From positions 1 to 36,456 of the forward strand of contig JAHCKS010000048.1 of assembly GCA_026125665.1 (NCBI GenBank): a stretch of 36,456 bases of DNA, in the 5' to 3' direction. This document shows, piece after piece, positions 4,614-22,139 of the stretch (positions are counted from its first letter, which is position 1; every line of letters starts with the position of its first letter). Origin of the DNA: Rubrivivax sp. (GTDB taxonomy: Bacteria; Pseudomonadota; Gammaproteobacteria; Burkholderiales; Burkholderiaceae_C). A model generated the notes under the pieces. That model saw only the letters and a list, made by a program, of their open reading frames with translations. It did no database searches and was not told the origin of the DNA. The translations under genes were made by a program, and so were the position numbers.

Positions 4614-4619
4614 GCCGCC

Positions 4620-6053: not shown

Positions 6054-6077
6054 CGGTCCTCCTTCGGCTCGGCCTGC

Positions 6078-6262: not shown

Positions 6263-7600
6263 TCAGCGCCCCACCGATGCGTTGCGCTTCACGTTCAGCG
6301 CCGTGGCGATGAGCAACGCGAACAGCACCGCCACGCCCACCCACACCGCGCGGTAGTGCCCGGCGTCCATCAGCGCCCCGAAGACGAGCGGCGCGACGAC
6401 GAGCCCGGCATCGAGCCCCGAGTAGACGACACCGTAGACGCGGCCGGTGGCGCCTGGCGGCGTCGCCTGCTTGACGAGCAGGTCGCGCGAGGGGCCGGCG
6501 ATGCCCGCGCCGAAGCCCATCACGCCGGCGAGCACCGGCACCCATGCCGGCGGCCAGTGGCCGAAGGCGATGACCAGCGCCACCAGCGCCGCGAAGCCGA
6601 AGCCGGCGCCCGCCACGAGCGCCGTGCGCCGCTCGTCGCTGATGAGCTGCCCGCCGACGACCATGCCGAGCGCCCCGCTCACCATGTAGGCCGACAGGCA
6701 CAGCGCCACCTGCTCGGTGCTGATGCCGTGGATCTGCGAAGCCGCCGCCGGCGCGAAGCTCTGGATGCCGCCCAGCGCCGCGGCGAACACGAGGAAGAAC
6801 ACGAAGCAGGCCCACACCGCGGGCGCTCGCAGGAAGGCGAAATCGGAAGGCGGCGCCTCGGCCGGTGGCGCCGGGCCGGAACCCGCGCCACTGCCCCGGG
6901 CGGCGCTGCCGCCGGTGGCAGCCGACCACGTGCCCGCAGCAGCGCCCGCCTCGCGAGCCGGCGCCGGCGCGACCCTCGGCAGGGCGAGCGAGGCGCGCTG
7001 CCACAGCACGAAGGCGAGCAGCAGCCCCACCGCGGCCGCCACGGCGAAGAGCGCGACGCGCCACGAGCTCGCGGCAGCGATGCCCACCACGAACACCGGC
7101 GCCAGCGCCCAGCCGAGGCTGCCCGAGATGCCGTGCGCGGCATAGGCATGGCCGAGCCGCGGCGACTGCACGCGCGCGTTCAGGATCGAGAAGTCCACCG
7201 GGTGGAAGACGCAGTTGCCCAGGCCCGCCACGGCCATGAAGACGAGCAGCAGCGCGTAGCTCGGGCTCGCGCCGAGGCCCAGCGCGGCCAGCACCAGCAG
7301 CGCCAGCCCGCCGTAGAGCACGCGCTCGGCGCCGTGCCGGTCGACGACGAAGCCGGCGAGCGCCTGCCCGAAGCCCGAGACGACGAAGAACACCGACATC
7401 AGCGCGCCGAGCTGCGTGTTCGACAGCCCGAACGCCGGCGCGATCCACGGGAACAGCGGCGGCACCATCAGCTGGCAGAAGTGCGAACCGCCGTGCGCGA
7501 TGGAGACGACGGAGATCGTGCGCACGTCGCGCGCGCGGGCGGTGCGGGCCGCAGCGAGGCTGACGGCCGCCTCCGCCGCCGACGGGTGAAGGGCACTCAT
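6263..7600 (-). CDS. MFS transporter, fosmidomycin-resistance-like branch
   Basis: 445 residues with about twelve membrane helices in two halves. The N-terminal motif HGGSHFCQLMVPPLFPWIAP and the following GLSNTQLGALMSVFFV recall the FSR-like branch of the major facilitator superfamily, which exports or imports small organic molecules by proton coupling. The cytoplasmic D-R-H-G motif after helix 2 (VVDRHGAER) is present. The central loop, about residues 205-260, is an Ala/Gly/Pro-rich stretch of low complexity. The gene is the second of a LysR-MFS pair, 69 bases downstream of the LysR stop. It is likely linked to the catabolic island as a substrate or product transporter. The substrate cannot be read from the sequence. 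I see no strong ribosome-binding site before the ATG at 7600. Confidence 0.85.
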   Translation of the reverse strand: MSALHPSAAEAAVSLAAARTARARDVRTISVVSIAHGGSHFCQLMVPPLFPWIAPAFGLSNTQLGALMSVFFVVSGFGQALAGFVVDRHGAERVLYGGLALLVLAALGLGASPSYALLLVFMAVAGLGNCVFHPVDFSILNARVQSPRLGHAYAAHGISGSLGWALAPVFVVGIAAASSWRVALFAVAAAVGLLLAFVLWQRASLALPRVAPAPAREAGAAAGTWSAATGGSAARGSGAGSGPAPPAEAPPSDFAFLRAPAVWACFVFFLVFAAALGGIQSFAPAAASQIHGISTEQVALCLSAYMVSGALGMVVGGQLISDERRTALVAGAGFGFAALVALVIAFGHWPPAWVPVLAGVMGFGAGIAGPSRDLLVKQATPPGATGRVYGVVYSGLDAGLVVAPLVFGALMDAGHYRAVWVGVAVLFALLIATALNVKRNASVGR

Positions 7601-7669
7601 TGTGGCGATGCTAGGCGCCGCCGCCCGGTGCTGCCGGCGCAGGCTCTTGGCTCCTGCGCGCCGCCGCCC

Positions 7670-8572
7670 TCAGGCCGCCTGGCCGAGGTCGCCGCGGCCC
7701 AGCAGCAGGCTGCGGAAGTTCTGCGCCGCCGGCGACAGCGACCGGTCGGCGTGGAACAGCAGCGAGATCTCGCGCTCGATCACCGGCTCCTCGACCGGGC
7801 GGATCTCCAGGCCGAGCGCCTGCGCCAGGCGGTTCATCGCCGTCGTCATCACGGCGATGCCCAGGCCCGCCTCGACCATGCCGAGGATCGTCAGCGGCAG
7901 CTGCACCTCGAAGCGCCGGGTCAGCGCGACGCCGGCCCGTGCCAGCGCCTGGTCGAGCTGCTGGCGCACGGCGTTGCCCGGCGGCGGCCCGATGAGCGGC
8001 AGCTCGGCGATCTCGCGCCAGGCCAGGCGCTGCCGGCGCGCCAGCGCGTGCCCGCGCGGCATCACGGCGACGAAGGAGTCGGTGAGCAGCCGCTGCGCGC
8101 CGATGTCCTGCTCCTGGCCCTGCGCCGAGCCGACGCCGAAGTCCACCTCGCCCTTGCGCAGCTTGGCGATCACCTCGTGCTCGGCGACGTCGTCCACCGT
8201 CACCTTCACGCCCGGGTGCTGCACCTGGAAGTCGCGGATCACCGGCGGCAGCAGCAGCGCCGCCTGCAGCGACGCGGCGGCGATCGACACGCGGCCGCGA
8301 CCGAGCGTGCGCAGCTCGAGCGAGCTGCCGAGCACGCTGTCGAGATCGGCCATGGCCTTGCGCGCCAGCGGCAGGATCTCGGCGCCGGCCTGCGTCAGCC
8401 GCAGCATGCGCGTGTGCCGGTCGAACAGCTTGAGGCCGAGGTTCTCCTCGAGCTCGCGCACCAGCGTGCTCACCGACGACTGCGAGATGTCCAGCCGCTC
8501 GGCGGCGCGCGTGAAGTGCTGGGCCTCGGCCACCGCGATGAAGGCGCGCAGCTGGCGCAGCGTCACGTTCAT
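7670..8572 (-). CDS. LysR-family transcriptional regulator
   Basis: 300 residues from ATG 8572 (MNVTLRQLRAF), the usual LysR N-terminus. An in-frame GTG at 8596 would add eight residues and cannot be excluded. The winged helix-turn-helix is at about 4-62 (RAAERLDISQSSVSTLVRELEE), followed by a substrate-binding-like effector domain to the end. LysR proteins commonly sit divergently from the operon they control and respond to a pathway intermediate. This one diverges from the ABC transporter/hydroxylase operon beginning at 8725 and lies directly upstream of the MFS gene. By position it is the probable activator of the catabolic island; the effector is unknown. Confidence 0.92.
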   Translation of the reverse strand: MNVTLRQLRAFIAVAEAQHFTRAAERLDISQSSVSTLVRELEENLGLKLFDRHTRMLRLTQAGAEILPLARKAMADLDSVLGSSLELRTLGRGRVSIAAASLQAALLLPPVIRDFQVQHPGVKVTVDDVAEHEVIAKLRKGEVDFGVGSAQGQEQDIGAQRLLTDSFVAVMPRGHALARRQRLAWREIAELPLIGPPPGNAVRQQLDQALARAGVALTRRFEVQLPLTILGMVEAGLGIAVMTTAMNRLAQALGLEIRPVEEPVIEREISLLFHADRSLSPAAQNFRSLLLGRGDLGQAA

Positions 8573-8596
8573 CGACGGCAGGTCATCGGTGCGCAC

Positions 8597-8724
8597 TCAT
8601 CGGCTCTCGCGATCAAGTTATCCCAGTATGCCCGTTTATCGATGGCGACGACGATGCAAACATGCCTCGCACCGGGTCGCTCGGGCGCGACACGCAACGG
8701 CCGGATGGCGAAGGAGACACAGGC
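8597..8724. promoter_or_regulatory. Divergent LysR / ABC operon control region
   Basis: This 128-base region holds an AT-richer island at about 8610-8645 in otherwise GC-rich DNA. It contains GATCAAGTTATC (8611-8622) and GTTTATCGAT (8634-8643). The paired (G)TTATC elements and the flanking GATC/CGAT ends fit a LysR-type operator overlapping a promoter. I cannot assign clear -35 and -10 boxes. AAGGAG at 8711-8716 is the ribosome-binding site that sets the start at 8725. Confidence 0.4.
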
Positions 8725-9711
8725 ATGTCAGGGTTCACCCGCAGATCGATCGGGCGCTGCATCGCCGGCACGGCGCTGGCGCTCACGGGCGTCGGTGCGC
8801 AGGCGCAGGACCGGATCACCGTCACCACCACCTGGTTCGCGCAGGCCGAGCACGGCGGCTTCTACCAGGCCGTCGCCACCGGCATCTACAAGAAGCACGG
8901 CCTGGACGTCACGGTGAAGATGGGCGGCCCGCAGGTCAACGGCATGCAGCTGCTGCTGGCCGGGCAGACCGACTTCATCATGAACTACGACTTCGCAGTA
9001 CTGGCGGGCGTCGAGCGGGGATTTCCGGTCGTCACCGTCGGTGCGCCGCTGCAGTTCGACCTGCAGTGCGTGCTGACGCACGAGGACGTACGGAGCCCGG
9101 CCGAGCTGAAGGACAAGACCATCCTGGTCGCCGGCACCGGCACCACCTACTGGTGGCCCTGGTTCAAGAAGAAGTACGGCTACACCGACGCGCAGATGCG
9201 CCCGTACACGTTCAACCTGCAGCCGTTCTTCGCCGACAGGAACACCGCGCAGCAGGCGTTCGTCTCATCCGAACCGTTCCAGGCCGAGCAGAAGGGCGTG
9301 AAGACGAACTGCTTCCTGCTGGCCGAGCAGGGCTACCCCCCGTACACCGGGGCGATCACGACGACGCGCAAGATGGTCGACGACAAGCCCGATCTGGTGG
9401 CGCGCTTCGTCCGCGCTTCGATGGAAGGGTGGAAGAGCTACATGGAGAACCCGGCGCCGGCCAACGCGCTGATCAAGAAGGACAACCCGAACATGACCGA
9501 CGCGCAACTCGCCTACGGCCTGAAGAAGATGAAGGAGCTCGGCGTCGTGCACGGTCGCGAGGCCGCGCAGATGGGCATCGGCGCGATGACCGACGAGCGC
9601 TGGGAACGGACCGCCAGGTTCATGATGGAGTGGGGCCTGCTGAAGCCGGACACCGACTGGAAGAAGGCCTACACGCTGCGCTTCGTCAAAGACCTCAAGG
9701 TCATGCCGTGA
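8725..9711 (+). CDS. ABC transporter substrate-binding protein, NMT1/THI5-like
   Basis: 328 residues. The start at 8725 is set by AAGGAG eight bases upstream. The N-terminus has a signal peptide ending near AQAQ (about residue 28) and contains TRRSIGR, so export by the Tat route is possible. The mature protein begins ITVTTTWFAQAEHGGFYQAVATG, typical of NMT1/THI5-like binding proteins that capture pyrimidines, thiamine precursors, riboflavin, sulfonates or related compounds in the periplasm. It is the first gene of an importer whose ATPase start overlaps its stop (GTGA). The family and the downstream purine/pyrimidine-type deaminase make an N-heterocycle a reasonable ligand, but this is inference. 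Confidence 0.88.
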   Translation: MSGFTRRSIGRCIAGTALALTGVGAQAQDRITVTTTWFAQAEHGGFYQAVATGIYKKHGLDVTVKMGGPQVNGMQLLLAGQTDFIMNYDFAVLAGVERGFPVVTVGAPLQFDLQCVLTHEDVRSPAELKDKTILVAGTGTTYWWPWFKKKYGYTDAQMRPYTFNLQPFFADRNTAQQAFVSSEPFQAEQKGVKTNCFLLAEQGYPPYTGAITTTRKMVDDKPDLVARFVRASMEGWKSYMENPAPANALIKKDNPNMTDAQLAYGLKKMKELGVVHGREAAQMGIGAMTDERWERTARFMMEWGLLKPDTDWKKAYTLRFVKDLKVMP

Positions 9712-10565
9712 GCGCGCTGGCCACCGCCTTGCCGCCGCGGGCGCCGCACGTGGCCACGCCTCGGGTCGCTGCACGTGGCGATGGCGAAGGCCCCCCGGTG
9801 CTCGAGGCCGACCGCGTCGAGAAGACCTACCCGAACGGCACGCATGCGCTGAACGGCACCACGGTGAAGATCGCCCGCGGCGAGTTCGTCTCGCTGCTCG
9901 GGCCCAGCGGCTGCGGCAAGAGCACGCTGCTGAAGATGTTCGCCGGGCTCGAGGTGCCCTCGTCGGGCCGCATCGTGCTGCACGACGGCCACGACGCCGC
10001 CGGCCGCGCCAGCGGCCACGCGTCGATGGCGATGGTGTTCCAGGAAGCGACGCTGATGCCGTGGGCGCGCGTGACCGAGAACGTGCGCCTGCCGCTGGAC
10101 CTGGCCGGCATGCCGCGCGTCGAGGCCGACCGCCGCGTCGCCGAGGCGCTGGAGCTCGTCGGCCTGGCGCAGTTCGCGCGCTGCTACCCGCGCGAGCTCT
10201 CGGGCGGCATGCAGATGCGCGCCTCGATCGCACGCGCGCTTGCCGTGCAACCGAGCATCCTGCTGATGGACGAGCCCTTCGGCGCGCTCGACGAGTTCAC
10301 GCGCAACAAGCTCGACAGCGACCTGCACGAGCTGTGGTGCGCCCGCGGCTTCACCGTCGTCTTCGTCACGCACAGCATCTACGAGGCGGTGTTCCTCTCC
10401 AGCCGCGTCGTCGTCATGGCGGCGCGCCCGGGCCGCGTCATCGCCGACGTGCCGATCGTGGCGCCCGCGGCGCGCGACGAGAGCTACCGCGTCTCGCAGC
10501 CGTTCATCGAGAACTGCCGCGTGCTCTCCGAGCACCTGGTGCGCGCCAACCGCGGCGAGCGCTGA
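9708..10565 (+). CDS. ABC transporter ATP-binding protein (nitrate/sulfonate/taurine type)
   Basis: 285 residues starting at GTG 9708, which overlaps the stop of the binding-protein gene by four bases. All ATPase motifs are present: Walker A GPSGCGKST at 65-73, Q-loop VFQEATLMPW, signature LSGGMQMR, Walker B ILLMDEPFGALDE and the switch histidine in VTHSIYEA. The sequence resembles SsuB/TauB/NrtD-type subunits. It should energise import of the ligand bound by the upstream periplasmic protein. An N-terminal extension of about 30 residues precedes the conserved domain, and a later start is possible but no better ribosome-binding site is seen. Confidence 0.93.
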   Translation: MSALATALPPRAPHVATPRVAARGDGEGPPVLEADRVEKTYPNGTHALNGTTVKIARGEFVSLLGPSGCGKSTLLKMFAGLEVPSSGRIVLHDGHDAAGRASGHASMAMVFQEATLMPWARVTENVRLPLDLAGMPRVEADRRVAEALELVGLAQFARCYPRELSGGMQMRASIARALAVQPSILLMDEPFGALDEFTRNKLDSDLHELWCARGFTVVFVTHSIYEAVFLSSRVVVMAARPGRVIADVPIVAPAARDESYRVSQPFIENCRVLSEHLVRANRGER

Positions 10566-10600
10566 GTGCGACCGGCCCGCCACGCGAGGAGAACCACGCC

Positions 10601-11431
10601 ATGAGCGTTTCCACCCACGCCCTGCCGGCGCCCGCCGAGCCGGTGCGCTTCGGCGACCAGCCGATCGTCAGGTTCGGCGCGCCCGCGGCGCTGGGCGCCG
10701 TGCTGCTGCTCGCCTGGCAGCTCGTGTGCACGGTGTTCGAGGTGCCGGAGTTCCTGGTGCCTTCGCCGCTGGCGATCGCGCAGACGCTGGTGGCGGACTG
10801 GTCGCTGCTCTCGAACGCGCTGCTGACGACGCTGAAGGTCACCTTCCTCGCCTTCGCGCTGGCGGTGGTCATCGGCGTGGCGGCCGCGTTCGTGTTCGTG
10901 CAGAGCCGCGTCATCGAGGTGAGCCTGTTCCCCTACGCGATCATCCTGCAGGTGACGCCGATCGTCGCCATCGCGCCGCTGATCATCATCTGGGTCAAGC
11001 ACCCCACGTTCGCGATGACGATCTGCGCCACGATCGTGGCGCTGTTCCCGATCATCTCCAACACCATCCTCGGGCTGCGCAGCGTCAACCCGGGGCTGGC
11101 GAACCTGTTCAAGCTCAACCGCGCCACGCGCTGGCAGACGCTGGCGCGGCTGCGGGTGCCGAGCGCCCTGCCCTACTTCTTCGGCGGGCTGCGCATCTCC
11201 AGCGGCCTGGCGCTGATCGGCGCCGTCGTCGCCGAGTTCGTCGCCGGCACCGGCGGCACCGCGTCGGGGCTGGCCTACCAGATCCTGCAGGCCGGCTTCC
11301 AGCTGAACATCCCGCGCCTGTTCGCGGCGCTGGCGCTCATCACCGGCACCGGCATCGTGCTCTTCATGGCGATGGCCTGGCTGTCGAAGCTGGCACTGGG
11401 CGGCTGGCACGAGAGCGAGATGGGGCACTGA
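10601..11431 (+). CDS. ABC transporter permease (SsuC/TauC-like)
   Basis: 276 residues, ATG 10601 with AGGAG at 10587-10591. About six membrane helices follow a short cytoplasmic N-terminus. The binding-protein-dependent transport (BPD) domain is clear. The EAA-type coupling loop lies around FKLNRATRWQTLARLRVPSALPYFFGGLRI, where the contact with the ATPase is expected. It completes the importer begun at 8725. The next gene starts 78 bases downstream and is probably cotranscribed. Confidence 0.92.
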   Translation: MSVSTHALPAPAEPVRFGDQPIVRFGAPAALGAVLLLAWQLVCTVFEVPEFLVPSPLAIAQTLVADWSLLSNALLTTLKVTFLAFALAVVIGVAAAFVFVQSRVIEVSLFPYAIILQVTPIVAIAPLIIIWVKHPTFAMTICATIVALFPIISNTILGLRSVNPGLANLFKLNRATRWQTLARLRVPSALPYFFGGLRISSGLALIGAVVAEFVAGTGGTASGLAYQILQAGFQLNIPRLFAALALITGTGIVLFMAMAWLSKLALGGWHESEMGH

Positions 11432-11509
11432 CCCCTGCCCGGCGGGCATCGGGCGGCTGGCGGCCGCGGGATACTGCGCGCCACCGCCCGGCCCGATGGA
11501 GGACAACCG

Positions 11510-12934
11510 ATGATGCTGATCCGCGGCGCCGCCGCCGTCCTGACCGGGGCCGCGCCAGGGCCCGGTTCGCCGGCGCGCAGCGCCGCCACCGACCTGCGCA
11601 TCGGCGCCGACGGCACGATCGCCGAGATGGGCCGCGGCCTCGCCGCGGCCCCGGGCGAGCGCGTGCTCGACGCCGCCGGCTGCGTCGTCTACCCGGGCTG
11701 GGTGAACACCCACCACCACCTCTTCCAGTCGCTGCTGAAGGGGGTGCCGGGCGGCATCGACCTGACGCTCGGGCCGTGGCTGCAGGCCGTGCCGTTCCGC
11801 TACCGCGGTGTGTTCGCCGACGAGGTGCTGCTGCGGCTGGCCGCGCGCATCGGCCTCGTCGAGCTCGTGCGCTCGGGCTGCACGACGGTGGCCGACCACC
11901 ATTACCTGTACTGGCCCGGCCTCGGCTACGACCCGGCCGAGGTGCTGTTCGACGAGGCCGGGCGCCTGGGGCTGCGCTTCATGCTGCTGCGCGGCGGCGG
12001 CACTATCTCGCGCGTCCCCGGCGACGTGGCGCTGCCGCACCAGAAGCCCGAGCCGTTCGACGCGATGCTCGACGACCTGGCGCGTGCCGCGTCGCGCTTC
12101 CACGAGCGCGGGCCGCGCGCGCGACGCCGCATCGCCTTCGCGCCGACGACGATCACCGTCGCGCTGCGCCCCGAGGAGCTGAAGCCGGCGGCGCGTGCCG
12201 CGCGCGCGCTCGGCGTGCCGCTGCACTCGCACATGTCGGAGACGGTGAACTACTACGAGCACTGCGCCGAGCGCTTCGGCGGCATGAAGCCGATCGAGGT
12301 CTGCGCCGAACACGAGTGGCTCGGGCCCGACGTGTGGTTCGCGCACCTCGTGCACCTGTCGCAGCCCGAGCGGCGCCTGCTCGCCGAGACCCGCACCGGC
12401 ATGGCGCACTGCCCGCAGAGCAACGGCCGGCTGGGCAGCGGCGTGGCGCCGGCGCCGGCGCTGGCGCGCGAAGGCGGCCGCCTGTCGATCGGCGTCGACG
12501 GTGCCGCTTCGAACGAGGCGGCCGACATGCTGAGCGAGCTGCACGCCGCCTGGCTGCTGCACCGGGCCCATGCCGGCGCGGCGTCGCGCCCGCGGCCCGA
12601 GGGCGGCGGCGAGCAGGGGGCCGATGCGGTGACGGTCGAGGACCTCGTGCACTGGGGCTCGGCCGGCGGCGCCGCGGTGCTCGGCTTCGACGGCGTCGGC
12701 ACGCTCGCCCCGGGCATGGCCGCCGACCTCGCGGTGTGGTCGCTCGACGACCCGCGCCACTTCGGCCTGCACGACGAGGCGCTGGCGCCGGTGGTGAGCG
12801 GCGCGCGGCCGCGCCTAAAGTGGCTGCTGTGCGGCGGGCGCGTCGTCGTCGAGGACGACACGATCCCCGGCCTCGACCTCGCCGAGCTGGCGCACGACGC
12901 GCGGGCCGCCGTGCGGCGCATCGCGGCATCGTGA
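11510..12934 (+). CDS. Amidohydrolase, 8-oxoguanine deaminase / hydroxydechloroatrazine hydrolase-like
   Basis: 474 residues. GGAGGA at 11498-11503 precedes two consecutive ATGs (11510 and 11513); either may be used. Metal-dependent amidohydrolase motifs appear in order: NTHHHLFQ (HxH, about 67-74), GCTTVADHHYLY, HSHMSE, HLVHL, MAHCPQSNGRLG and GVDGAASNE with the metal-binding aspartate. The ADHHYL and VDGAASNE segments are close to the 8-oxoguanine deaminase/AtzB/TrzN branch, which removes an amino or alkylamino group from a purine, pyrimidine or triazine ring. Its place between an importer and a molybdenum hydroxylase suggests that it deaminates an imported or hydroxylated N-heterocycle. 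Exact substrate unknown. Its stop overlaps the GTG of ubiX. Confidence 0.87.
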   Translation: MMLIRGAAAVLTGAAPGPGSPARSAATDLRIGADGTIAEMGRGLAAAPGERVLDAAGCVVYPGWVNTHHHLFQSLLKGVPGGIDLTLGPWLQAVPFRYRGVFADEVLLRLAARIGLVELVRSGCTTVADHHYLYWPGLGYDPAEVLFDEAGRLGLRFMLLRGGGTISRVPGDVALPHQKPEPFDAMLDDLARAASRFHERGPRARRRIAFAPTTITVALRPEELKPAARAARALGVPLHSHMSETVNYYEHCAERFGGMKPIEVCAEHEWLGPDVWFAHLVHLSQPERRLLAETRTGMAHCPQSNGRLGSGVAPAPALAREGGRLSIGVDGAASNEAADMLSELHAAWLLHRAHAGAASRPRPEGGGEQGADAVTVEDLVHWGSAGGAAVLGFDGVGTLAPGMAADLAVWSLDDPRHFGLHDEALAPVVSGARPRLKWLLCGGRVVVEDDTIPGLDLAELAHDARAAVRRIAAS

Positions 12935-13542
12935 ACGCCGGCGCGCGCCCCCGCCTCGTCGTCGGCATCAGCGGCGCGTCGGGCTTCGTCTACGGCGTGC
13001 GGCTGCTCGAGCTGCTGCGCGAGCTCGAGGTCGAAGTGCACCTCGTCGTCAGCCGCTCGGCGCTGCTGACGATGGCCGCCGAGACGGCGTACAAGCTGGC
13101 CGACGTGCAGGCGCTCGCCGCCCGGGTGCACCGCAACGACGACGTGGGTGCGGCCATCGCCAGCGGCTCGTTCCGCACGCTCGGCATGGTGGTGGCCCCA
13201 TGCTCGATGAAGACGCTGGCCGAGATCGCCACCGGCAACACGGGCTCGCTGCTCGCGCGTGCCGCCGACGTGGTGCTGAAGGAGCGCCGCCGCCTCGTGC
13301 TGCTGGCGCGCGAGACGCCGCTGCACGCCGGCCACCTGCGCAACATGCTCGCGGTCACCGAGATGGGCGCCATCGTCGCCCCGCCCGTGCCTGCGTTCTA
13401 CGCGCGGCCCGGGAGCCTCGAGGACATGGTCGACCACACGCTCGGCCGCGTGCTCGACCTCTTCGGCCTCGACGCCGGCACGGTGCGGCGCTGGCAAGGC
13501 ATGCCGGGGCGCGCGCACCCGCCAGAGGCCGGCCGGCCCTGA
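12931..13542 (+). CDS. ubiX: UbiX-type flavin prenyltransferase
   Basis: 203 residues from GTG 12931, which overlaps the previous stop (GTGA). Family motifs are very clear: VGISGASGFVYGVRLLE at 11-27, IASGSF at 76-81, APCSMKTLAEIATG at 89-102, RAADVVLKERRRLVL and RETPLHAGHLRNM at 127-139, and PPVPAFYARP at 151-160. UbiX makes prenylated FMN from FMN and dimethylallyl phosphate; this cofactor is needed by UbiD decarboxylases. A UbiD-family gene is in the same island (18578-19978), so this copy probably serves that enzyme rather than, or as well as, ubiquinone synthesis. A pathway-specific paralogue of a second chromosomal ubiX is possible. Confidence 0.9.
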   Translation: MNAGARPRLVVGISGASGFVYGVRLLELLRELEVEVHLVVSRSALLTMAAETAYKLADVQALAARVHRNDDVGAAIASGSFRTLGMVVAPCSMKTLAEIATGNTGSLLARAADVVLKERRRLVLLARETPLHAGHLRNMLAVTEMGAIVAPPVPAFYARPGSLEDMVDHTLGRVLDLFGLDAGTVRRWQGMPGRAHPPEAGRP

Positions 13543-13583
13543 TCGGGTGCGGCACGCCTCACGATCGGACCTCGGCCGCAACC

Positions 13584-13606
13584 GCCTGCCGTGGCGAACG
13601 GCAGGC
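13584..13606. terminator. Perfect inverted repeat between ubiX and the hydroxylase genes
   Basis: GCCTGCCG (13584-13591) pairs with CGGCAGGC (13599-13606) around TGGCGAA, 41 bases after the ubiX stop. There is no T-run. It may be a partial terminator or RNA-processing hairpin separating the importer/deaminase/ubiX part from the hydroxylase part. The 211-base gap around it could hold an internal promoter, but I see no convincing one. Confidence 0.38.
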
Positions 13607-13753
13607 CCACACGAAACCGCGGAAGCGCGTGAAACGCGCCGTCCATCGTGTCACCCGATGGCTTTATCCATCCGGCCCGGTTGCCCGGCGGCCCCGCGGC
13701 TGCGAGCATGCGCCCATCGCCCCGGACAACGGCGCACGCAGGAGGAACCGACG

Positions 13754-14617
13754 ATGAGGCGCTTCGACTACTCGGCCCCGGCCTCGCTCGACGAGGCGGT
13801 GGCGCTGCTCGCGCGCTTCGGCGCGAAGGCGAGCCTGTTCGCCGGCGGCACCGACCTGCTGGTCGAGATCAAGGAGCAGATCCGCCAGCCCGATCACGTC
13901 ATCAACCTGAAGCGCATCCCGGGCCTGGCCACGCTGGCCTTCGACGCGGCACGCGGCCTCGAGGTCGGCGCCCTGGTGACGGTGCGCGAGCTGGAAACCT
14001 CGGCGATCGTGCAGCGCCACTACCGCAGCCTCTGGCAGGCGGCGCGCGAGCTCGGCTCGATCCAGGTGCGCCACCGCGCCACGCTGGCCGGCAACGTCTG
14101 CCGCGCCTCGCCGTCGGCCGACACGCTGCCGCCGCTCGTCGCCGACGGTGCGCTCGTGCACCTGCATGGGCCGCTGGGCCGGCGCGACGTGGCCGCCGAG
14201 GCCTTCTTCACCGGCCCCGGCCGCACGGTGCTCGGGCCCGAGGAGATCGTCACCGGCTTCACGCTGCCGCCGCCCGCGCCGGGCATGGTCAAGGCCTACC
14301 TCAAGCATGGCCGCCGCAAGGCGATGGAGCTGGCCACCGTCGGCGTGGCCGTGACGCTCGTGCGCCGCGGCGCCGTGGTGGAGCAGGTGCGCATCGTGCT
14401 CGGCGCCGTCGCACCGACGCCGATGCGCGCACGCGGCGCCGAGGCGCTGCTCGAAGGCCGCGTGCCCGACGCGGCAGCGCTCGCCGCCGCGGCCGAAGCC
14501 GCGATGGCGGAGTCCCGGCCCATCAGCGACGTGCGCGCCAGCGCCGCCTATCGCCGCCGCATGGTGGGGGTGTTGACGCAACGGGCCGTCTCGCAGGCCC
14601 TGGAGGCCGCGCAATGA
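13754..14617 (+). CDS. Molybdenum hydroxylase, FAD-binding medium subunit (CoxM-like)
   Basis: 287 residues, ATG 13754 with AGGAGG at 13740-13745. FAD-binding motifs are AGGTDLLVEIK at 30-40 and SIQVRHRATLAGNVCRASPSAD at 102-123. The domain order is that of xanthine-oxidase-family medium subunits, which pass electrons from the iron-sulfur subunit to an acceptor. The protein lacks the roughly 40-residue insertion that carries a [4Fe-4S] cluster in 4-hydroxybenzoyl-CoA reductase, so that enzyme is unlikely. It forms one unit with the next two genes through ATGA overlaps. Confidence 0.92.
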   Translation: MRRFDYSAPASLDEAVALLARFGAKASLFAGGTDLLVEIKEQIRQPDHVINLKRIPGLATLAFDAARGLEVGALVTVRELETSAIVQRHYRSLWQAARELGSIQVRHRATLAGNVCRASPSADTLPPLVADGALVHLHGPLGRRDVAAEAFFTGPGRTVLGPEEIVTGFTLPPPAPGMVKAYLKHGRRKAMELATVGVAVTLVRRGAVVEQVRIVLGAVAPTPMRARGAEALLEGRVPDAAALAAAAEAAMAESRPISDVRASAAYRRRMVGVLTQRAVSQALEAAQ

Positions 14618-15117
14618 GCCAGCAGACGATCCGGCTGACGATCAACGGCGAGCCGAGCGAGCTCGTCGTCGAACCCTGGCGCAGCCTGCTCGACGCGCTG
14701 CGCGTCGAAGGCGGCCTCACCGGCACGAAGAAGGGCTGCGACGTCGGCGACTGCGGCGCGTGCACCGTCGTCCTCGACGGCAAGCCGGTCAACGCGTGCC
14801 TCGTGCTCGCCGTCGAGGTCGAAGGCTGCGACCTGCGCACGATCGAGGGCCTGCAACCCGGCCCGGGGCAGGTGCACCCGCTGCAGGAGCAGTTCATGCG
14901 CTGCGGCGCGGCGCAATGCGGCTTCTGCACGCCCGGCGTGCTGATGATGGCCAAGGCGCTGCTCGACGACACGCCGCGGCCCACCGAGGCCGAGATCCGC
15001 TTCGCGCTCGCCGGCAACATCTGCCGCTGCACCGGCTACACGAAGATCATCGAGGCGGTGCGGCGCACGGCCGAGGAAGACACCGAGGAAGACACCGAGG
15101 AAGGAGCCGCGGCATGA
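14614..15117 (+). CDS. Molybdenum hydroxylase, 2x[2Fe-2S] small subunit (CoxS-like)
   Basis: 167 residues from ATG 14614, overlapping the previous stop (ATGA). The plant-type [2Fe-2S] ligands are Cys 42, 47, 50 and 62. The second cluster, in the helical domain, uses Cys 102, 105, 137 and 139 (QCGFCTPG and ICRCTGY). All eight are present, so both clusters should form. The C-terminus carries an acidic repeat (EEDT-EEDT-EEG) encoded by a duplicated 12-base unit just before the start of the large subunit, an unusual tail for this family. Confidence 0.94.
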   Translation: MSQQTIRLTINGEPSELVVEPWRSLLDALRVEGGLTGTKKGCDVGDCGACTVVLDGKPVNACLVLAVEVEGCDLRTIEGLQPGPGQVHPLQEQFMRCGAAQCGFCTPGVLMMAKALLDDTPRPTEAEIRFALAGNICRCTGYTKIIEAVRRTAEEDTEEDTEEGAAA

Positions 15118-17440
15118 ACGCCAGCGTCGAAGGCGAACGCGCCGCGCTGCGCGAACCGGGCGGGTTCAGCGTCGTCGGCAAGCCGGTCAGGCGCGGCGAC
15201 CTGCTGGAGAAGGTGACCGGCGCCGCCGTCTACGCCGGCGACCTGCGGCTGCCGGGCATGCTGCACGGCAAGACGCTGCGCAGCAACGTCGCGCACGCGC
15301 GCATCGTGCGCATCGACGCCAGCCGCGCCCGCGCGCTGCCCGGCGTGAAGGCGGTGCTGACGCACGAGGACGTGCCGCGCGTGCTGCACTACGGCTCGCC
15401 GCACCCGCGCTCGGCCTCGTGCACGAAGGACCAGTACATCCTCGACACCAAGGTGCGCTACTGGGGCGAAGGGGTGGCCGTCGTTGCCGCGACGAGCGAG
15501 GAGATCGCCGAGGAGGCGCTCGCGCTGATCGACGTGCAGTACGAGGCGCTGCCGGCCGTCTTCGGGACCGACGCCGCGCTCGCCCCGGGCGCGCCGCTCC
15601 TGCACGACGTCGGCCCCGGCGGCAACCTGGTGCAGCCGCCGGTGCGCGTGCAGCGCGGCGACATCGAGCGCGGCTTCGCCGAAGCCGACCTCGTGCTCGA
15701 GGGCGTCTACGAGACCGGCCGGCCGACACCGGCCTACATGGAGCCCAACGTCTGCGTCGCTCAGTGGGACGCCAACGGCAAGCTGACGATGTGGAGCTCG
15801 ACGCAGACCGCGTTCATGGTGCGCGGCATCCTGGCCGAGGTGCTGGGGCTGCCGCTGAACCACGTGCGCGTGCTGGTGGACCACATGGGCGGCGGCTTCG
15901 GCGCTAAGCAGGACCTCTTCCAGCACGAGTTCCTCTGCGCGCTGCTCGCCAAGCACACCCGCAAGCCGGTGCGCATGGAGTTCACGCGCAAGGAGACCTT
16001 CCTCGGCGGGCGCTCGCGCCACCCGTGCCGCATCCATCTCAGGCAGGGCTTCCGGCGCGACGGCACGATCACCGCACGCCAGGCGCGCCTGGTCTACGAC
16101 TCCGGTGCCTACGGCTCACACGGGCCGGGTGTCACCAACGTCGGCACCGCGTCGCTCACGTCGCTCTACCGCTGCGAGAACGTCGACCTCGAAGGCCTGT
16201 GCGTCTACACGAACAACCCGATCGCCGGGGCGTTCCGCGGCTACGGCGTCGTGCAGGCGTACTGGGCGCTGGACCTGCAGATCGACGAGGCGGCCGAGCG
16301 GCTCGGCCTCGATCCGGTGGCGATGAAGGCCAGGAACGCCGTGTGCGCCGGCGACATCGCGCCTTCGGGGCATGCCATCGTCGGCCACGGCCTCGAGGAC
16401 TGCATCCGCCGCGGCGCGGCCGAGGTGGGCTGGACGACGCGGCGCCCGCCGAAGCGTGCACCGCAGGGCCCGCTGCGCTACGGCTGGGGCATCGGCTGCG
16501 AGATGCACGGCTCCAGCGCCTACCCCGGCATCAAGGAGCAGGGCAACGCCATCGTCAAGCTCAACGAGGACGGCAGCGCGACGCTGCTCACCGGCGCCGC
16601 GGGCCTGGGCACCGGCGCGCACACGGCGCTGGCGCAGATCGTCGCCGAGGAGCTCGGCCTGCCGTTCGAGCACGTGAGCGTGGTGCATGGCGACACCGAT
16701 GTCGTGCCGTGGGACATCGGCGCCTTCGCCAGCCACACCACCTTCATGGTCGGCCGTGCGGCACAGATGGCGGCGCAGCAGGTGAAGGCGCAGATGCTCG
16801 AGCGCGCGGCCGCGCGGCTCGAGGCGCCGGCCGCGGGGCTCGCCGTACGGGACGGCGTGGTCCGCGTCGCCGCGGAACCCGCGCGGTGCATCACCGTGCG
16901 CGAGGTGATGATGCCCGCGCGCGGCATCCCTTCGGCGCACCTCGTCGGCCACGGCAGCTACACGCCGACGAAGGCGTACTCGTTCGCCGCCCACTTCGTG
17001 GAGGTGGCGGTGGACACCGAGACCGGCCTCGTCGAGGTGCTGCAGGTGGTGCCCGTGCACGAGTTCGGCCGCGTCATCCACCCGGTGGCCGCGGCCGGGC
17101 AGATCGAAGGCGGCATCCAGCAGGGCATCGGCCACACGCTGACCGAGGATCACCTGGTGGACCCGAAGACCGGCCGCAGCCTGAACGCCAGCTTCGTCGA
17201 CTACAAGATGCCGCTCGCGATGGACATGCCGCCGATCCGCACGATCATGCTCGAGACCGCGCCCGACCCCGGCGGGCCCTACGGCGCCAAGGGCATCGGC
17301 GAGGACCCGATCATCGCCATCGGCCCGGCCATCGCCAACGCGGTGCATGATGCGATCGGCGTGCGCTTCCGCGCCTTCCCGATCACGCCTGAGAAGGTGC
17401 TGGCGGCGCTGGCCACACGGCCGCAGGAACAGGAGCACGC

Positions 17441-17444
<4 letters not shown>
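15114..17444 (+). CDS. Molybdenum hydroxylase, molybdopterin-binding large subunit (xanthine dehydrogenase family)
   Basis: 776 residues from ATG 15114 (ATGA overlap; AAGGAG just upstream). It begins with the a/b hammerhead domain ([21 protein letters not shown]). GGGFGAKQD at about 262-270 and [14 protein letters not shown] near the C-terminus are the molybdopterin-cytosine-dinucleotide/molybdenum-centre motifs; Glu 730 is the expected catalytic base. The segment [10 protein letters not shown] replaces the AYRCSFR active-site loop of true CO dehydrogenase, so this is not CoxL. The family hydroxylates N-heterocycles or aldehydes at a carbon next to nitrogen, with water as oxygen source. With the neighbouring deaminase and decarboxylase, ring hydroxylation of a heteroaromatic acid is the best inference. 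Confidence 0.92.
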
Positions 17445-18481
<1,037 letters not shown>

Positions 18482-18556
18482 AGGGCGCACCCGGCGGGCA
18501 CGAGGCGCCCTGCGGCACGCGCGGCGGCTGCACCCTCGGCGCCAGCCTCGGCGCCC

Positions 18557-18576
18557 GCCGGACCTGCGCGTCCGGC
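18557..18576. terminator. Hairpin between convergent operons
   Basis: GCCGGAC (18557-18563) and GTCCGGC (18570-18576) form a seven-base stem with a six-base loop, directly against the stop codon of the UbiD gene (18578-18580 on the minus strand). It sits in the 96-base gap between the two convergent operons and could stop transcription in both directions. The downstream T-run is only two bases on the plus strand. Confidence 0.4.
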
Positions 18577-18577
18577 T

Positions 18578-19978
18578 TCAGCTCCGGCCGAGAATCTGCC
18601 GCGCGCGCTCCAGCGCCTGCACCGAGATCTTCGCCAGCACGCCGTCGAAGTCCTTGCCGCGCGTCGCGTCCAGCCCCATGCGCGACGTGGTGCCGGCACC
18701 CGACGCCGACGGGTCGAGCGCGCTGCCGGGCAGCCCGTCGATGACCATCAGGTCGCGGTGCGGCTGGAAGTGCGTGGCCAGCGCCCACAGCACCTGCTCG
18801 TCGCGCGTCACGTCGACGTCGGCGTCGACGGCGATCACCGTCTTCAGGTACGGGTCCCAGCCGAGCAGGCCGAGCATGACCTGGCGCGCCTCGCCGTCGC
18901 GCATCGGCTTGAGCGCCACGTAGGCGTGGAAGTGCGTGCCCGAGTTCGGGTAGTGCAGCGCCGTGACGCTCGGGAAACGTGCCCTGATCTTCTCCACCAT
19001 CTCCGACTCGCGCGGGATGCGCGCGAGGTTCAGGTGCTCTGCGGCGTTGCCGCCCAGCACGTCGATCAGCATCGGCCGTGCGCGGTGCAGCACCGTCTGC
19101 ACCTGCAGCAGGTTGTTCGTCGAGCGGTTCGACGAGTAGCCGGTGAACTCGCCGAAGGGGCCCTCGTCGGCGCGCGCCGCGGGGTCGATGACGCCCTCGA
19201 GCACGTACTCGGCACCGGCCGGCACGCGGATGCCGTGCTTCGGCGTGCGCACCACCTCGAGCGGCGCGCCGAGCAGGCCGCCGGCGACCTCGCGCTCGTC
19301 GGCGCCGAAGGGCAGCCGCGCCGAGGCGGCCAGCATCACGAGCGGGTGCATGCCGACCACCATCGCCACCGGCAGCGGGCGGCCGCGCTCGGCGGCCAGC
19401 TGCAGCAGCCGCCAGAGATCCCCGCGCGAGTGCAGGCTCGTGGCCAGCGCGTCGGGGGCGTGCAGCATCGAGCGGTGGTAGCTCATGTTGCCCGCGCCGG
19501 TGTCCGGGTGCTCCGCGACGATGACGGCGTTGGTCACGTACGGCGCGCGGTCGCTCTCGAAGTGGCGCAGCATCGGCACGAGCCGCGCGAGGTCGACGTC
19601 GCCCTTGCCGCCGTCGTGCACGACCTCGGTCACCGGGCCCGCGGCCACCTCGCGCGGCGGGCAGGCGCGGCGCGAGCGCGCCTGGTAGGCCTCGTGCAGC
19701 TGCGCCGGCGCGACGCCGAACCAGTGCGCGATGCGCTCGCGCGAGCCGAAGAGGTTCGTCGCCACCGGCACCGGGGCGTCGGTCGCCAGGCCCTCGACGC
19801 GCTCGAACACGAGCAGCGGAGCGCGGCCCTCGCGCTCGAGCGCCGCCGCGACGGCCGTGATCTCCTGGTCGGCCGAGACCGGGCCGGCGACGACGAGCAC
19901 GTCGTCGGGCCGCTCGGCGCGGTAGCGGGCGATGAACGACTGCGCGTCCTGCGGGGCGGGCGCGCCGGCGGCGGCCAT
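18578..19978 (-). CDS. UbiD-family prenyl-FMN-dependent (de)carboxylase
   Basis: 466 residues, ATG 19978, starting two bases after the stop of the upstream amidohydrolase. UbiD-family features are present throughout. NMSYHR gives Arg 169, and DEGPFGEFTGY gives Glu 272 and Glu 277, whose spacing of five matches the Arg-Glu-Glu triad known in Fdc1. HLNLARIPRESEM and THFHAYVAL are also typical. These enzymes need prenylated FMN from UbiX and catalyse reversible decarboxylation of aromatic, heteroaromatic or alpha,beta-unsaturated acids. The presence of ubiX in the convergent operon supports pathway use rather than ubiquinone synthesis, as does the sequence, which is not close to canonical UbiD. 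The substrate is unknown; an aromatic or N-heteroaromatic carboxylate is inferred. Confidence 0.9.
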   Translation of the reverse strand: MAAAGAPAPQDAQSFIARYRAERPDDVLVVAGPVSADQEITAVAAALEREGRAPLLVFERVEGLATDAPVPVATNLFGSRERIAHWFGVAPAQLHEAYQARSRRACPPREVAAGPVTEVVHDGGKGDVDLARLVPMLRHFESDRAPYVTNAVIVAEHPDTGAGNMSYHRSMLHAPDALATSLHSRGDLWRLLQLAAERGRPLPVAMVVGMHPLVMLAASARLPFGADEREVAGGLLGAPLEVVRTPKHGIRVPAGAEYVLEGVIDPAARADEGPFGEFTGYSSNRSTNNLLQVQTVLHRARPMLIDVLGGNAAEHLNLARIPRESEMVEKIRARFPSVTALHYPNSGTHFHAYVALKPMRDGEARQVMLGLLGWDPYLKTVIAVDADVDVTRDEQVLWALATHFQPHRDLMVIDGLPGSALDPSASGAGTTSRMGLDATRGKDFDGVLAKISVQALERARQILGRS

Positions 19979-19980
19979 CG

Positions 19981-20895
19981 TCAATCCACCATCGCGTAGC
20001 TGTCCTTCAGCCGCGCCTGCGCCTGCTCCATCGTGCGCGGCGGCGGGCTCGTGCGGATGCCGCACATGCGCGCGATGTTGTTGCCCATGTAGTCCTCGAG
20101 CCCGTCCTCGTCGAGGCCGATGCCGTGCGGCGGCGGCCGACACAGCATCTCCAGCTCGCGCAGCCACATGCCGGGCTCGTTGGGCGGGCTGTCGGTGCCG
20201 AAGACGATCTTGTGCCGCGGCAGCTGCCGGGCGAACTCGGCGATGCGCGCCTGGAAGCACCAGCCCGATTCGCAGACGACGTTCGGCGTGTCCATCGCCA
20301 TCCAGAATGCCTCGAAGCTGTAGTTGCCGCCCGTCTGGATGCCGAAGTGGCCGATGATGAAGTTCACCATCGGGAACTCGCGGATGATCGGATAGAACAT
20401 CGTCGGGATCGTGAACGGCCCGTCGCCGGTGTGGATGAGCACGACGATGTTGTACTTGGCGCACATCTTCATTGCCGGGCGCAGCCAGTCGAGCGCGCGA
20501 TCGGGCCGGTAGCCGTGCATGTTGGCGTGCAGCTTGATCATCTTGAAGCCGTATTCCCTGTGGTGGTGCTCGATCTCGAGCGCCCCGTTTTCCGGCCCCC
20601 AGCGCGGGTTGTAGGTGAAGTTGCCGATGAAGCGGTCGGGGTACTTCTGCGTCAGCTCGGCGATGTAGGCCATGTAGTCGCGGATGCCCTCGCGCCCGCG
20701 CCGGTTGCCGTCGCGGTAGCCGGTGTTGCCCGGCGGCGGCTGGATGAAGCCCATGTCGATGCGCCGCGGCTTGCCGTTGATGATGTACGGCCCGTCCATC
20801 AGCTTGAGCATGCGCTCGCCGTTGAACGGCGTGCCGGTGTGGCGCCAGGCCTCGTCGACCAGGTTGGTGGGGTGCAGGTGGGTGTCGATGATCAT
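19981..20895 (-). CDS. Amidohydrolase_2 (ACMSD-like TIM barrel), canonical metal site
   Basis: 304 residues beginning MIIDTHLHPTNL. The metal-site set of the ACMSD/resorcylate-decarboxylase family is complete: HxH at 6 and 8, His 123 in KLHANMHG, His 155 in HTGDGP, His 183 in GHFG and Asp 235 in FGTDSPPNEPG. This superfamily includes zinc- or manganese-dependent decarboxylases and hydrolases of aromatic or cyclic acids. It has a paralogue directly upstream (20977-21921) of nearly the same length with about half of the residues conserved, and UbiD directly downstream. It is likely a second decarboxylase or a ring-opening hydrolase in the same pathway. Confidence 0.88.
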   Translation of the reverse strand: MIIDTHLHPTNLVDEAWRHTGTPFNGERMLKLMDGPYIINGKPRRIDMGFIQPPPGNTGYRDGNRRGREGIRDYMAYIAELTQKYPDRFIGNFTYNPRWGPENGALEIEHHHREYGFKMIKLHANMHGYRPDRALDWLRPAMKMCAKYNIVVLIHTGDGPFTIPTMFYPIIREFPMVNFIIGHFGIQTGGNYSFEAFWMAMDTPNVVCESGWCFQARIAEFARQLPRHKIVFGTDSPPNEPGMWLRELEMLCRPPPHGIGLDEDGLEDYMGNNIARMCGIRTSPPPRTMEQAQARLKDSYAMVD

Positions 20896-20976
20896 GGTGC
20901 TTGGGCTCGGTGCGTGCGCGGTCCGTGCGCGGTGCGTCGGCGTCGTGGCGTCGTGGCGGCGGTGCGGCGGTGCGGC
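20896..20976. repeat. Short degenerate tandem repeats between the paralogous amidohydrolase genes
   Basis: Three adjacent pairs of direct repeats fill most of this gap: CGTGCGCGGT(C/G) twice at 20913-20934, CGTCGTGG twice at 20941-20956, and CGGCGGTG twice at 20957-20972. They look like slipped-strand duplications. No function is assigned. Confidence 0.5.
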
Positions 20977-21921
20977 TCAGTACAGCGGGATCACCGGCTG
21001 CGGCGCCAACCCCTGGCCCTTCTCGCCCAGGCGCGCACGCGCCTCCTCGAAGGTCTTGGGCGCCGGCGTCGGCTCCAGCCCGACCATGCGCGCGATGTTG
21101 TTGCCGAGGTAGTCCTCGAGCGTCGCCTCGTCGAGGTTCAGCCCCTGCGGCGGGTTCGTGCACAGCACCTCCAGCAGGCGCAGCCACATGCCCGGCTCGT
21201 TGGGCGGTGTGTCCGTGCCGAAGAGGATCTTGTGCCTGGGCAGCGTCTTGGCGAACTCGACGATGCGCGACTGCAGGCACCAGCCCGATTCGCAGTAGAC
21301 GTTGGGCAGCTCCATCGCCCACTGGTAGGGCTCGAAGCAGTAGACGCCGCCGGTCTGCACGCCGAAGTGCGCCATGATGAAGTCGACCTGCGGGAACTCC
21401 TTGATCATCGGCACCCACTCGGTGGGGATGCTGTAGGGGCCGTCGCCGGTGTGCAGCTTCACCGGCACCTTCAGCTCGGCCGCCTTGGCCAGCGCCGGGC
21501 GCACCCAGTCCAGTGCGCGGTCCGGGCGGTAGGCGTGCATGTTGGCCTGCATCTGCACCATGCGGAAGCCATGCTGCCGCACGTAGCGTTCCATGCCGTC
21601 GACCGCTGCGGCGACGCCGCAGCGCGGGTTGTAGACGTAGCAGCCGATGAGGCGCTCGGGGTGCTTCTTCACCGCCTGCAGCACGTAGGCGTGGTAGCGG
21701 TCGATGCTCTCGGGCCCGGTGAGCTCGCCGTCGGTCCAGGTGTAGATGGTGTTGCCCTGCGGCGGCTGCACGAACGCCTTGTCGATGCGCCGCGGCTTGC
21801 CGTTGACCCAGTAGGGCCCGTCCATCGTCTCGAGCAGGCGCTCGGTCGTGTAGGGCTCCCCCTCGTGCCACCAGGCGAGGTCGACCTGGTCGGTGGGGTA
21901 GCAGCTGATGTCGATGATCAT
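20977..21921 (-). CDS. Amidohydrolase_2 paralogue with degenerate metal site
   Basis: 314 residues, ATG 21921 with GAGGA upstream. It aligns end to end with the canonical protein encoded next to it: shared blocks include MDGPY..NGKPRRID, ANMHxYRPDRALDW, HTGDGP, HFGxQTGG and FGTDTPPNEPGMWLR. The N-terminal HxH is replaced by Ser 6 and Tyr 8 (DISCYPT against DTHLHPT), and the third histidine by Gln 125. His 157, His 185 and Asp 237 remain. A normal binuclear or HxH-anchored metal site therefore cannot form. It may be a non-catalytic partner of the canonical paralogue, or an enzyme with a changed mechanism. It is the first gene of the leftward operon. Confidence 0.87.
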   Translation of the reverse strand: MIIDISCYPTDQVDLAWWHEGEPYTTERLLETMDGPYWVNGKPRRIDKAFVQPPQGNTIYTWTDGELTGPESIDRYHAYVLQAVKKHPERLIGCYVYNPRCGVAAAVDGMERYVRQHGFRMVQMQANMHAYRPDRALDWVRPALAKAAELKVPVKLHTGDGPYSIPTEWVPMIKEFPQVDFIMAHFGVQTGGVYCFEPYQWAMELPNVYCESGWCLQSRIVEFAKTLPRHKILFGTDTPPNEPGMWLRLLEVLCTNPPQGLNLDEATLEDYLGNNIARMVGLEPTPAPKTFEEARARLGEKGQGLAPQPVIPLY

Positions 21922-22029: not shown

Positions 22030-22139
22030 GCGGCCTCGTCGCCCCGCTGCCGGCGCGGCATCGCACGGCGCCTGCGGTGGGTCGCGCCGGGCTTCGCTAC
22101 CATGCGACCTCGCGGGACCCCCCGGCACCGGCCAAGAGC

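Follow-up and report, generated by a model that had tools for sequence, protein, structure and literature searches.

A 36,456-nt contig of Rubrivivax sp. (hereafter the window; G+C 73%), part of a 6.28-Mb draft genome (268 contigs, completeness 88.6%), carries a compact group of genes for a UbiD-family decarboxylase, UbiX, a three-subunit molybdenum (Mo) hydroxylase, a ring deaminase, a G3E GTPase and two amidohydrolase_2 proteins. An original prediction made from this DNA had treated the group as a generic catabolic island; the cluster is more specific than that. Its substrate is likely of the pteridine type, and the proposal that the gene set as a whole is a pterin (pteridine) catabolic cluster, working by the full mechanism described below, stands at about an even chance. 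The kinship of the deaminase with the solved structure 2paj, the NCS2 permeases of related loci and the operons that join the deaminase to xanthine dehydrogenase (XDH) together point to pterins feeding into xanthine. Pterins, which derive from folate, molybdopterin and animal (insect) pigments, are common in nature.

In the route that we infer, the imported pterin would most likely be isoxanthopterin, or else pterin that is oxidised to isoxanthopterin. The deaminase would remove its 2-amino group to give 7-oxylumazine, which the Mo hydroxylase would hydroxylate at C6 to 2,4,6,7-tetrahydroxypteridine. The amidohydrolase_2 pair would then hydrolyse the oxamide-like pyrazine ring in a metal-dependent reaction, with re-closure as an imidazole, yielding xanthine-8-carboxylate in a net isomerisation, a ring contraction that would correspond to tetrahydroxypteridine cycloisomerase (EC 5.5.1.3). 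UbiD, with prenyl-FMN made by UbiX, would remove the carboxylate to leave xanthine for the cell's ordinary XDH, and the G3E GTPase would deliver metal. McNutt and Damle are reported to have described in Alcaligenes, in the 1960s, the conversion of isoxanthopterin to 7-oxylumazine, tetrahydroxypteridine, xanthine-8-carboxylate (by EC 5.5.1.3) and xanthine, and the enzyme classes of the cluster match these steps one to one. On the exact order of the steps, and on which proteins serve as cycloisomerase and as decarboxylase, our judgement is evenly balanced.

Each gene named in the original prediction is an intact open reading frame (ORF) at its predicted coordinates, and the ORFs together with Pfam and NCBIfam profile scans bear out the layout of two convergent operons (8725-18481, plus strand; 18578-21921, minus strand) and a divergent LysR/MFS pair, in which the LysR gene (7670-8596, minus strand) diverges from the plus-strand operon and the MFS gene (6263-7600, minus strand) lies behind it. 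Six of the ten within-operon junctions are tight (a 4-base overlap in five, a 2-base gap in one), the other gaps being 35, 78, 81 and 211 bases. Gene identities come from the profile scans, except that the ABC ATPase and permease were named by sequence and relatives instead:

6263-7600, minus strand: MFS transporter, a possible importer or exporter (PF07690, 153.6 bits), just outside the start at 7670 originally given for the cluster
7670-8596, minus strand: LysR-family regulator (PF03466, PF00126)
8725-9711, plus strand: NMT1/THI5-type ABC substrate-binding protein, SBP (PF09084, 106 bits; 58% orthologue in the L144 operon)
9708-10565, plus strand: ABC transporter ATPase, abcA (ORF and overlap; 58% orthologue in L144, whose ORF matches PF00005)
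10601-11431, plus strand: ABC transporter permease, abcP (position and relatives; 69% orthologue in L144)
11510-12934, plus strand: isoxanthopterin-deaminase-type amidohydrolase, by sequence (NF009059; kinship with 2paj; tree)
12931-13542, plus strand: UbiX flavin prenyltransferase, source of prenyl-FMN for UbiD (TIGR00421 and NF004685, both above cut-off)
13754-14617, plus strand: Mo hydroxylase FAD subunit, moM (XdhB-like profile match, under all equivalog cut-offs listed)
14614-15117, plus strand: Mo hydroxylase 2Fe-2S subunit, moS (XdhC/4-hydroxybenzoyl-CoA-reductase gamma-like, under all cut-offs listed)
15114-17444, plus strand: Mo hydroxylase molybdopterin subunit, moL, proposed pteridine C6 hydroxylase (PF02738, PF20256, PF01315)
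17441-18481, plus strand: G3E/COG0523 GTPase, cobW, putative metallochaperone serving UbiD or the amidohydrolase_2 pair (PF02492, PF07683)
18578-19978, minus strand: UbiD-family decarboxylase, proposed xanthine-8-carboxylate decarboxylase (PF01977, PF20696, PF20695; TIGR00148, 279.8 bits against a cut-off of 244.85)
19981-20895, minus strand: amidohydrolase_2 protein with full metal site, ah2a, candidate catalytic subunit for the ring contraction (PF04909; motifs)
20977-21921, minus strand: amidohydrolase_2 paralogue without HxH, ah2b, proposed non-catalytic or differently acting partner (PF04909)

Conserved linkage and distribution

Related loci were collected with ah2a (19981-20895) as bait. 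A scan of named-species genomes gave 237 encoding stretches, the best 80 of which were taken as loci, and gene content was counted in the 56 offering at least 20 kb, which leaves out 24 shorter loci including the single Pseudomonas locus. The co-occurrence search that had been suggested as a check finds ah2b, ah2a and ubiD together in all 56, a grouping far beyond chance, with cobW in 55/56 and ubiX in 45/56; the ubiD of three Rhodoplanes loci is only 40-42% identical to that of the window. A Mo hydroxylase is present in 52 of the 56 loci, as the window type in 30, as an unrelated two-subunit type in 19 and as an edge-cut form of this second type in three (L047, L054, L066); no locus contains both types, and each replaces the other. 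The two-subunit replacement, exemplified by L109 4049-6346 and L145 357-2417, is presumably isoquinoline-oxidoreductase-like. The four loci with no Mo hydroxylase in the flank are L060, L065, L071 and L091, the last from a Devosia-labelled metagenome-assembled genome (MAG) that has the window type elsewhere (L143).

The flank of 30/56 loci holds a window-type deaminase (at least 45% identity) and that of L106 a cytosine-deaminase-like one. Sixteen genomes were searched whole; 14 of them are without a window-type deaminase in the flank; in 12 cases an orthologue (51-61%) lies at another place in the genome, the remaining two (Ensifer, L117, and the Enemella-labelled L106) having a cytosine-deaminase-like protein instead. 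The orthologue of the Cupriavidus locus L078 sits about 2.4 kb beyond the locus end, and in Cupriavidus necator UYPR2.512 (L148 4670-6012) the deaminase matches as two pieces, perhaps through a frameshift or assembly error. A LysR orthologue (at least 50% identity) occurs in 18 of the full-flank loci; the MFS gene occurs in one of the 56 and is thus weakly linked to the cluster. Separation of the operons in relatives, which the original prediction had raised as a point against a single unit, is seen in some genomes, where the parts still co-occur, as in the Devosia-labelled MAG (L091 and L143); in most loci the parts lie at most 10 kb from ah2a. Among the neighbours of the core, a scan of 49 unlabelled proteins of 142 candidates gave no further recurring purine or pterin enzyme among the 25 of 55 families listed. 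One purine-type (PF02133) permease occurs once among the scanned neighbours.

Within the family, ah2a is encoded in seven of 399 genomes including its own (E 1e-20 or better); the other six copies are 86-92% identical to it, and each of those six genomes has a second copy at 58-63%. Within the genus it is found in nine of 60 genomes, again including its own, one of them with only a partial match. ah2a is hence rare and patchy but strongly conserved, a pattern that fits an accessory trait passed on by horizontal transfer. Carriers among the best 80 loci include Rubrivivax, Ideonella, Massilia, Janthinobacterium, Ramlibacter, Variovorax, Cupriavidus, Ralstonia, Paraburkholderia, Caballeronia, Burkholderia and others, and further Rhodoplanes, the Devosia-labelled MAG, Ensifer, Paracoccus and Pseudomonas. 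Plasmid records encode ah2a in 91 cases, 63 of them Sinorhizobium, and UbiD in 92, from the same genera. The ubiD of Sinorhizobium meliloti 2011 lies on the 1.68-Mb replicon NC_020560, which we take to be pSymB, and the full gene set is present on pSymB of Sinorhizobium strain ml45. A spread to Actinomycetota by way of L106, labelled Enemella evansiae, was considered and rejected: positions 1-17382 of this record, some 17 kb, are 96.4% identical to a stretch of a Ponticoccus alexandrii plasmid (L127), and on account of this identity the record, which is probably a mislabelled or contaminated assembly and at best a very recent transfer, is not counted as spread outside Pseudomonadota.

Next to the cluster in the window stand nadA (quinolinate synthase, 22077-23252, plus strand), a gene of NAD synthesis outside the cluster unit, and a gene for a FAD protein with FAD_binding_2 and Succ_DH_flav_C domains (25296-26969, minus strand), perhaps L-aspartate oxidase, which with nadA flanks the cluster; nadA also adjoins the amidohydrolase_2 pair in 3/80 related loci. 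Near the MFS gene are two proteins with protein-kinase domains (1617-4613, plus strand; 4620-6230, minus strand), of which one also carries Cache and HAMP and the other a cyclic-nucleotide-binding domain. A GntR/FCD regulator gene with a TctC-type receptor gene after it (33381-35305, plus strand) is probably an unrelated uptake locus.

The deaminase, the Mo hydroxylase and xanthine dehydrogenase

On sequence grounds the window deaminase is of the isoxanthopterin-deaminase type. It scores 648 bits against NF009059, an unnamed amidohydrolase family (cut-off 543), and 354.6 bits against the 8-oxoguanine deaminase family NF006055, whose cut-off of 532 it does not reach and whose identity is thereby ruled out for it. 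The original description as 8-oxoguanine-deaminase-like is hence right as far as an amidohydrolase deaminase goes and gives way to the isoxanthopterin type in its particular. Among solved structures it comes nearest to 2paj (E 2.6e-160), with which it shares 252 of 464 aligned residues (54%), 8-oxoguanine-type deaminases standing at about 1e-66; the comparison stands at 486 bits and 54% identity for 2paj versus 254 bits and 39% for an 8-oxoguanine deaminase, and the motifs NTHHH and APTT are shared with 2paj. Of the 39 cluster deaminases aligned, 35 have APTT and four APTS; the motif reads APCS in two solved 8-oxoguanine-type deaminases. Gln73, Tyr132 and Thr213 are kept in at least 98% of the 39 and Thr214 in 35; these may correspond to the substrate contacts of isoxanthopterin deaminase, a Gln, a Tyr and two Thr. 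We take 2paj to be the enzyme that Hall et al. 2010 described as isoxanthopterin deaminase; that enzyme, from Sargasso Sea DNA, reportedly acts on isoxanthopterin and pterin-6-carboxylate.

A maximum-likelihood tree combined the window deaminase and 38 others from related clusters with 2paj and with a single 8-oxoguanine and a single guanine deaminase; it was drawn with a midpoint root. In it 2paj, on a long branch, is nested within the clade of the window deaminase and its cluster-linked relatives (16 entries, support 95/87). PMC5270733 bears out activity on isoxanthopterin and pterin-6-carboxylate for Sargasso Sea proteins related to 8-oxoguanine deaminase, though not the link of that enzyme to the code 2paj, and a passage of PMC11121863, citing the same Sargasso Sea work, describes isoxanthopterin deaminase in insects.

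The moL subunit combines Ald_Xan_dh with two MoCoBD domains (PF02738, PF20256, PF01315) and has the GxGE glutamate within GxGEDP in 39/39 sequences. Its score of 313 bits against the xanthine dehydrogenase profile TIGR02965 (cut-off 849.5), where the true XDH of its own genome reaches 1198, rules out 13754-17444 as the housekeeping enzyme. Further, the motif GGGFGAKQD is kept in 39/39, with Gln replacing the Glu of GGGFGGKE in the genome's own XDH, which argues that moL is not an XDH copy.

XDH itself is tied to the deaminase by operon structure in two MAGs. A Bradyrhizobiaceae-labelled MAG (G411, L144) has a single operon SBP-abcA-abcP-deaminase-xdhA-xdhB, in which the first four products are 58, 58, 69 and 54% identical to their counterparts in the window and the last two 46 and 53% identical to xdhA and xdhB of the window's own genome. 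In the Devosia-labelled MAG (G410, L143) deaminase-xdhA-xdhB is divergent from moM-moS-moL (65, 70 and 72% identical to the window), with a GntR regulator between. The deaminases of both are 53% identical to 2paj. Both are alphaproteobacterial MAGs, and in the other whole-searched genomes with known XDH places the deaminase and XDH are apart; within the genus, two genomes (G441, G462) have XDH and the cluster on one contig. A true XDH is present in the window's own genome and in all 20 cluster genomes of a set picked from the 80 loci. The Devosia-labelled MAG also has 35 matches to the window moL (E 1e-60 or better), an unusually large Mo hydroxylase set.

Proposed ring contraction, decarboxylation and transport

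The original prediction counted two amidohydrolase_2 proteins; both belong to PF04909, but they are not equivalent enzymes. The metal ligands HxH (HLH), H155, H183 and D235 of ah2a are kept in 81/81 sequences, whereas in 78/78 aligned copies of ah2b the HxH is replaced by CY (SCY at 20977-21921 of the window), with the later His, His and Asp retained. AlphaFold2 models of both show an ACMSD-type fold, of the Amidohydrolase_2/ACMSD family. As the HxH-less ah2b is paired and co-conserved with ah2a, the sequences suggest a heteromer of a catalytic and a non-catalytic subunit. By the title of entry 4ifk, ACMSD needs an arginine from the neighbouring subunit, and hence an ah2b lacking HxH could still serve the ah2a site. 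The pair would fit the isomerase since C6-C7 of tetrahydroxypteridine is an oxamide: by chemical reasoning, one amide would be hydrolysed and the amine would re-close on the other carbonyl to give the imidazole carboxylate. We know of no sequence for EC 5.5.1.3, and no gene for it was found in the open-access literature searched.

UbiD contains all three domains (PF20695, PF01977, PF20696) and keeps R169, E272 and E277 in at least 98% of 79 sequences, residues that presumably correspond to the catalytic Arg-Glu-Glu R173/E277/E282 of Fdc1. Its closest PDB relative is 6h6x (143/401 identical, 36%), which we take to be furan-dicarboxylate decarboxylase, an enzyme whose substrate, as the imidazole acid proposed here, is a heteroaromatic acid with a five-membered ring. 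The cluster UbiX, above the TIGR00421 cut-off, provides a source of prenyl-FMN. The original prediction envisaged import, hydroxylation, deamination and decarboxylation of one heteroaromatic acid; a catabolic unit for an N-heterocycle is retained here, but the acid of UbiD is probably made within the pathway by ring contraction and not imported.

As for uptake, an NCS2 permease (at least 35% identity) is found in 39/56 loci (52/80), and the three representatives scanned, all from outside a more distant group at 40-49%, score above the cut-off for xanthine permease (pbuX). Importers of other loci are NMT1 ABC or BMP-type ABC systems, and 8/56 loci have none of the importer types sought. The window's own genome has no NCS2 permease orthologue by TIGR03173, and the window would hence rely on its ABC or MFS transporter.

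Alternative explanations and known systems

Several observations weigh against a route from isoxanthopterin to xanthine. Three loci (L060, L065, L071) lack a nearby Mo hydroxylase, and a genome-wide search for moL, of the window type, gives matches of at most 34%. XDH is near universal in the genus, with 53/60 genomes above the cut-off; it is found in 8/9 genomes with ah2a versus 45/51 without, a correlation that was discarded as uninformative, and because XDH is so common its presence alone proves nothing, the evidence being the operon linkage. The deaminase tree places the only 8-oxoguanine deaminase that it contains, which has a very long branch, between the 2paj clade and a more distant group of cluster deaminases, those from Ralstonia, Paraburkholderia and Caballeronia, at a weak support of 84/81; these may, on sequence, differ in substrate, though pairwise they are 48-52% identical to 2paj versus 38-44% to 8-oxoguanine deaminase. 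The Sinorhizobium/Ensifer, Paracoccus siganidrum and Ponticoccus loci carry as deaminase a different, cytosine-deaminase-like protein, and the fold relatives of the amidohydrolase_2 pair are mostly decarboxylases, not cyclic-amide hydrolases. The cytosine-deaminase-like proteins of Sinorhizobium (L126 25802-27097) and Ponticoccus (L127 2531-3829) are 68% identical to each other; in these clusters this protein is a candidate second, unrelated pterin deaminase.

A route from pterin-6-carboxylate, a folate oxidation product, would use the same cluster and kind of substrate in another order: the deaminase would form lumazine-6-carboxylate, the Mo hydroxylase would oxidise C7, UbiD would remove the C6 carboxylate and the amidohydrolase_2 pair would hydrolytically open the pyrazine. 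It draws on the deamination of pterin-6-carboxylate by the Sargasso Sea enzymes, recorded in part of PMC5270733, and on PMC9513972, which does not settle what becomes of folate products after deamination and names lumazine-6-carboxylate as a possible intermediate; the folate degrader of that paper is a Variovorax, a genus that is among the cluster carriers (L057, L063). The route is unlikely, as it leaves 7-oxylumazine needing more steps and the XDH and NCS2 linkage without a clear reason. A modified or damaged purine, such as oxidised guanine or a 7-deazaguanine acid, would make purine chemistry the reason for the deaminase and the NCS2 permease, and NCS2, BMP-type transporters and XDH linkage suit purines equally; 8-oxoguanine deaminase is besides the next nearest named family, in the position in the tree noted above. 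This substrate is quite unlikely, given the failure of the window deaminase to reach the 8-oxoguanine cut-off, a separate 8-oxoguanine deaminase in the cluster genome G462 (L141; 642.6 bits against 532), a separate guanine deaminase in the window's own genome, and a ring-opening pair ahead of UbiD that a purine would not need. Were the amidohydrolase_2 pair instead a second, ACMSD-like decarboxylase or hydratase, with UbiD acting on another acid in the degradation of a carboxylated N-heteroaromatic as in the original prediction, two decarboxylases on one acid would be redundant and the deaminase-XDH operons would go unexplained; we consider this distinctly improbable.

The hmf cluster for hydroxymethylfurfural (HMF) and furoic acid has a UbiD (HmfF), a UbiX (HmfG) and a three-subunit Mo hydroxylase (HmfABC), as does the window, whose UbiD is related to 6h6x, but the window cluster adds the deaminase, the amidohydrolase_2 pair and the G3E GTPase. 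No AMP-binding ligase (furoyl-CoA synthetase) was matched among the scanned proteins of 7670-21921, which exclude the ABC ATPase and permease; with no CoA ligase seen and deaminase and amidohydrolases present, an hmf-type furoate pathway was rejected. Purine catabolism (XDH, guanine and 8-oxoguanine deaminases) overlaps in enzyme and transporter families and is the proposed point of entry, at xanthine; to our knowledge it includes no UbiD/UbiX or amidohydrolase_2 pair. The Alcaligenes pathway reportedly comprises deaminase, oxidase, cycloisomerase and decarboxylase activities that parallel the cluster's four enzyme classes, but it is known as activities, and we know of no genes for its last steps. 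Neither do we know of a pathway or gene cluster for isoxanthopterin deaminase. The enzyme is placed in marine environmental DNA by an excerpt of PMC5270733. In the same bacterial order as the window, Variovorax sp. F1 also deaminates pterins catabolically during folate degradation; the sections of PMC9513972 that describe this give only carboxypeptidase G and another pterin deaminase, trace degradation to deaminopteroate, leave the fate of the pteridine ring open and ask how bacteria degrade such products further. Tetrahydroxypteridine and xanthine-8-carboxylate appear in a portion of PMC5941619 merely as two assignments of a single urine mass. As the original prediction held, the gene set is not a recognised pathway: no description of it was found in the open-access literature on pterins, tetrahydroxypteridine, xanthine-8-carboxylate or UbiD clusters, a search that did not extend to subscription papers, and no gene set for the fate of the pterin ring in bacteria was found described there.

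Taken in full, the proposal is a tentative one, a little short of an even chance: complete breakdown of a pteridine to xanthine, with ah2a and an obligate HxH-less ah2b as the cycloisomerase and UbiD acting on a purine acid, by a cluster that has spread through horizontal transfer in the beta-, alpha- and gammaproteobacteria, in part on megaplasmids. If true, it would name genes for an enzyme activity known since the 1960s, add a new class of UbiD substrate, give the isoxanthopterin deaminase of marine DNA a purpose, and join pterin and purine catabolism.

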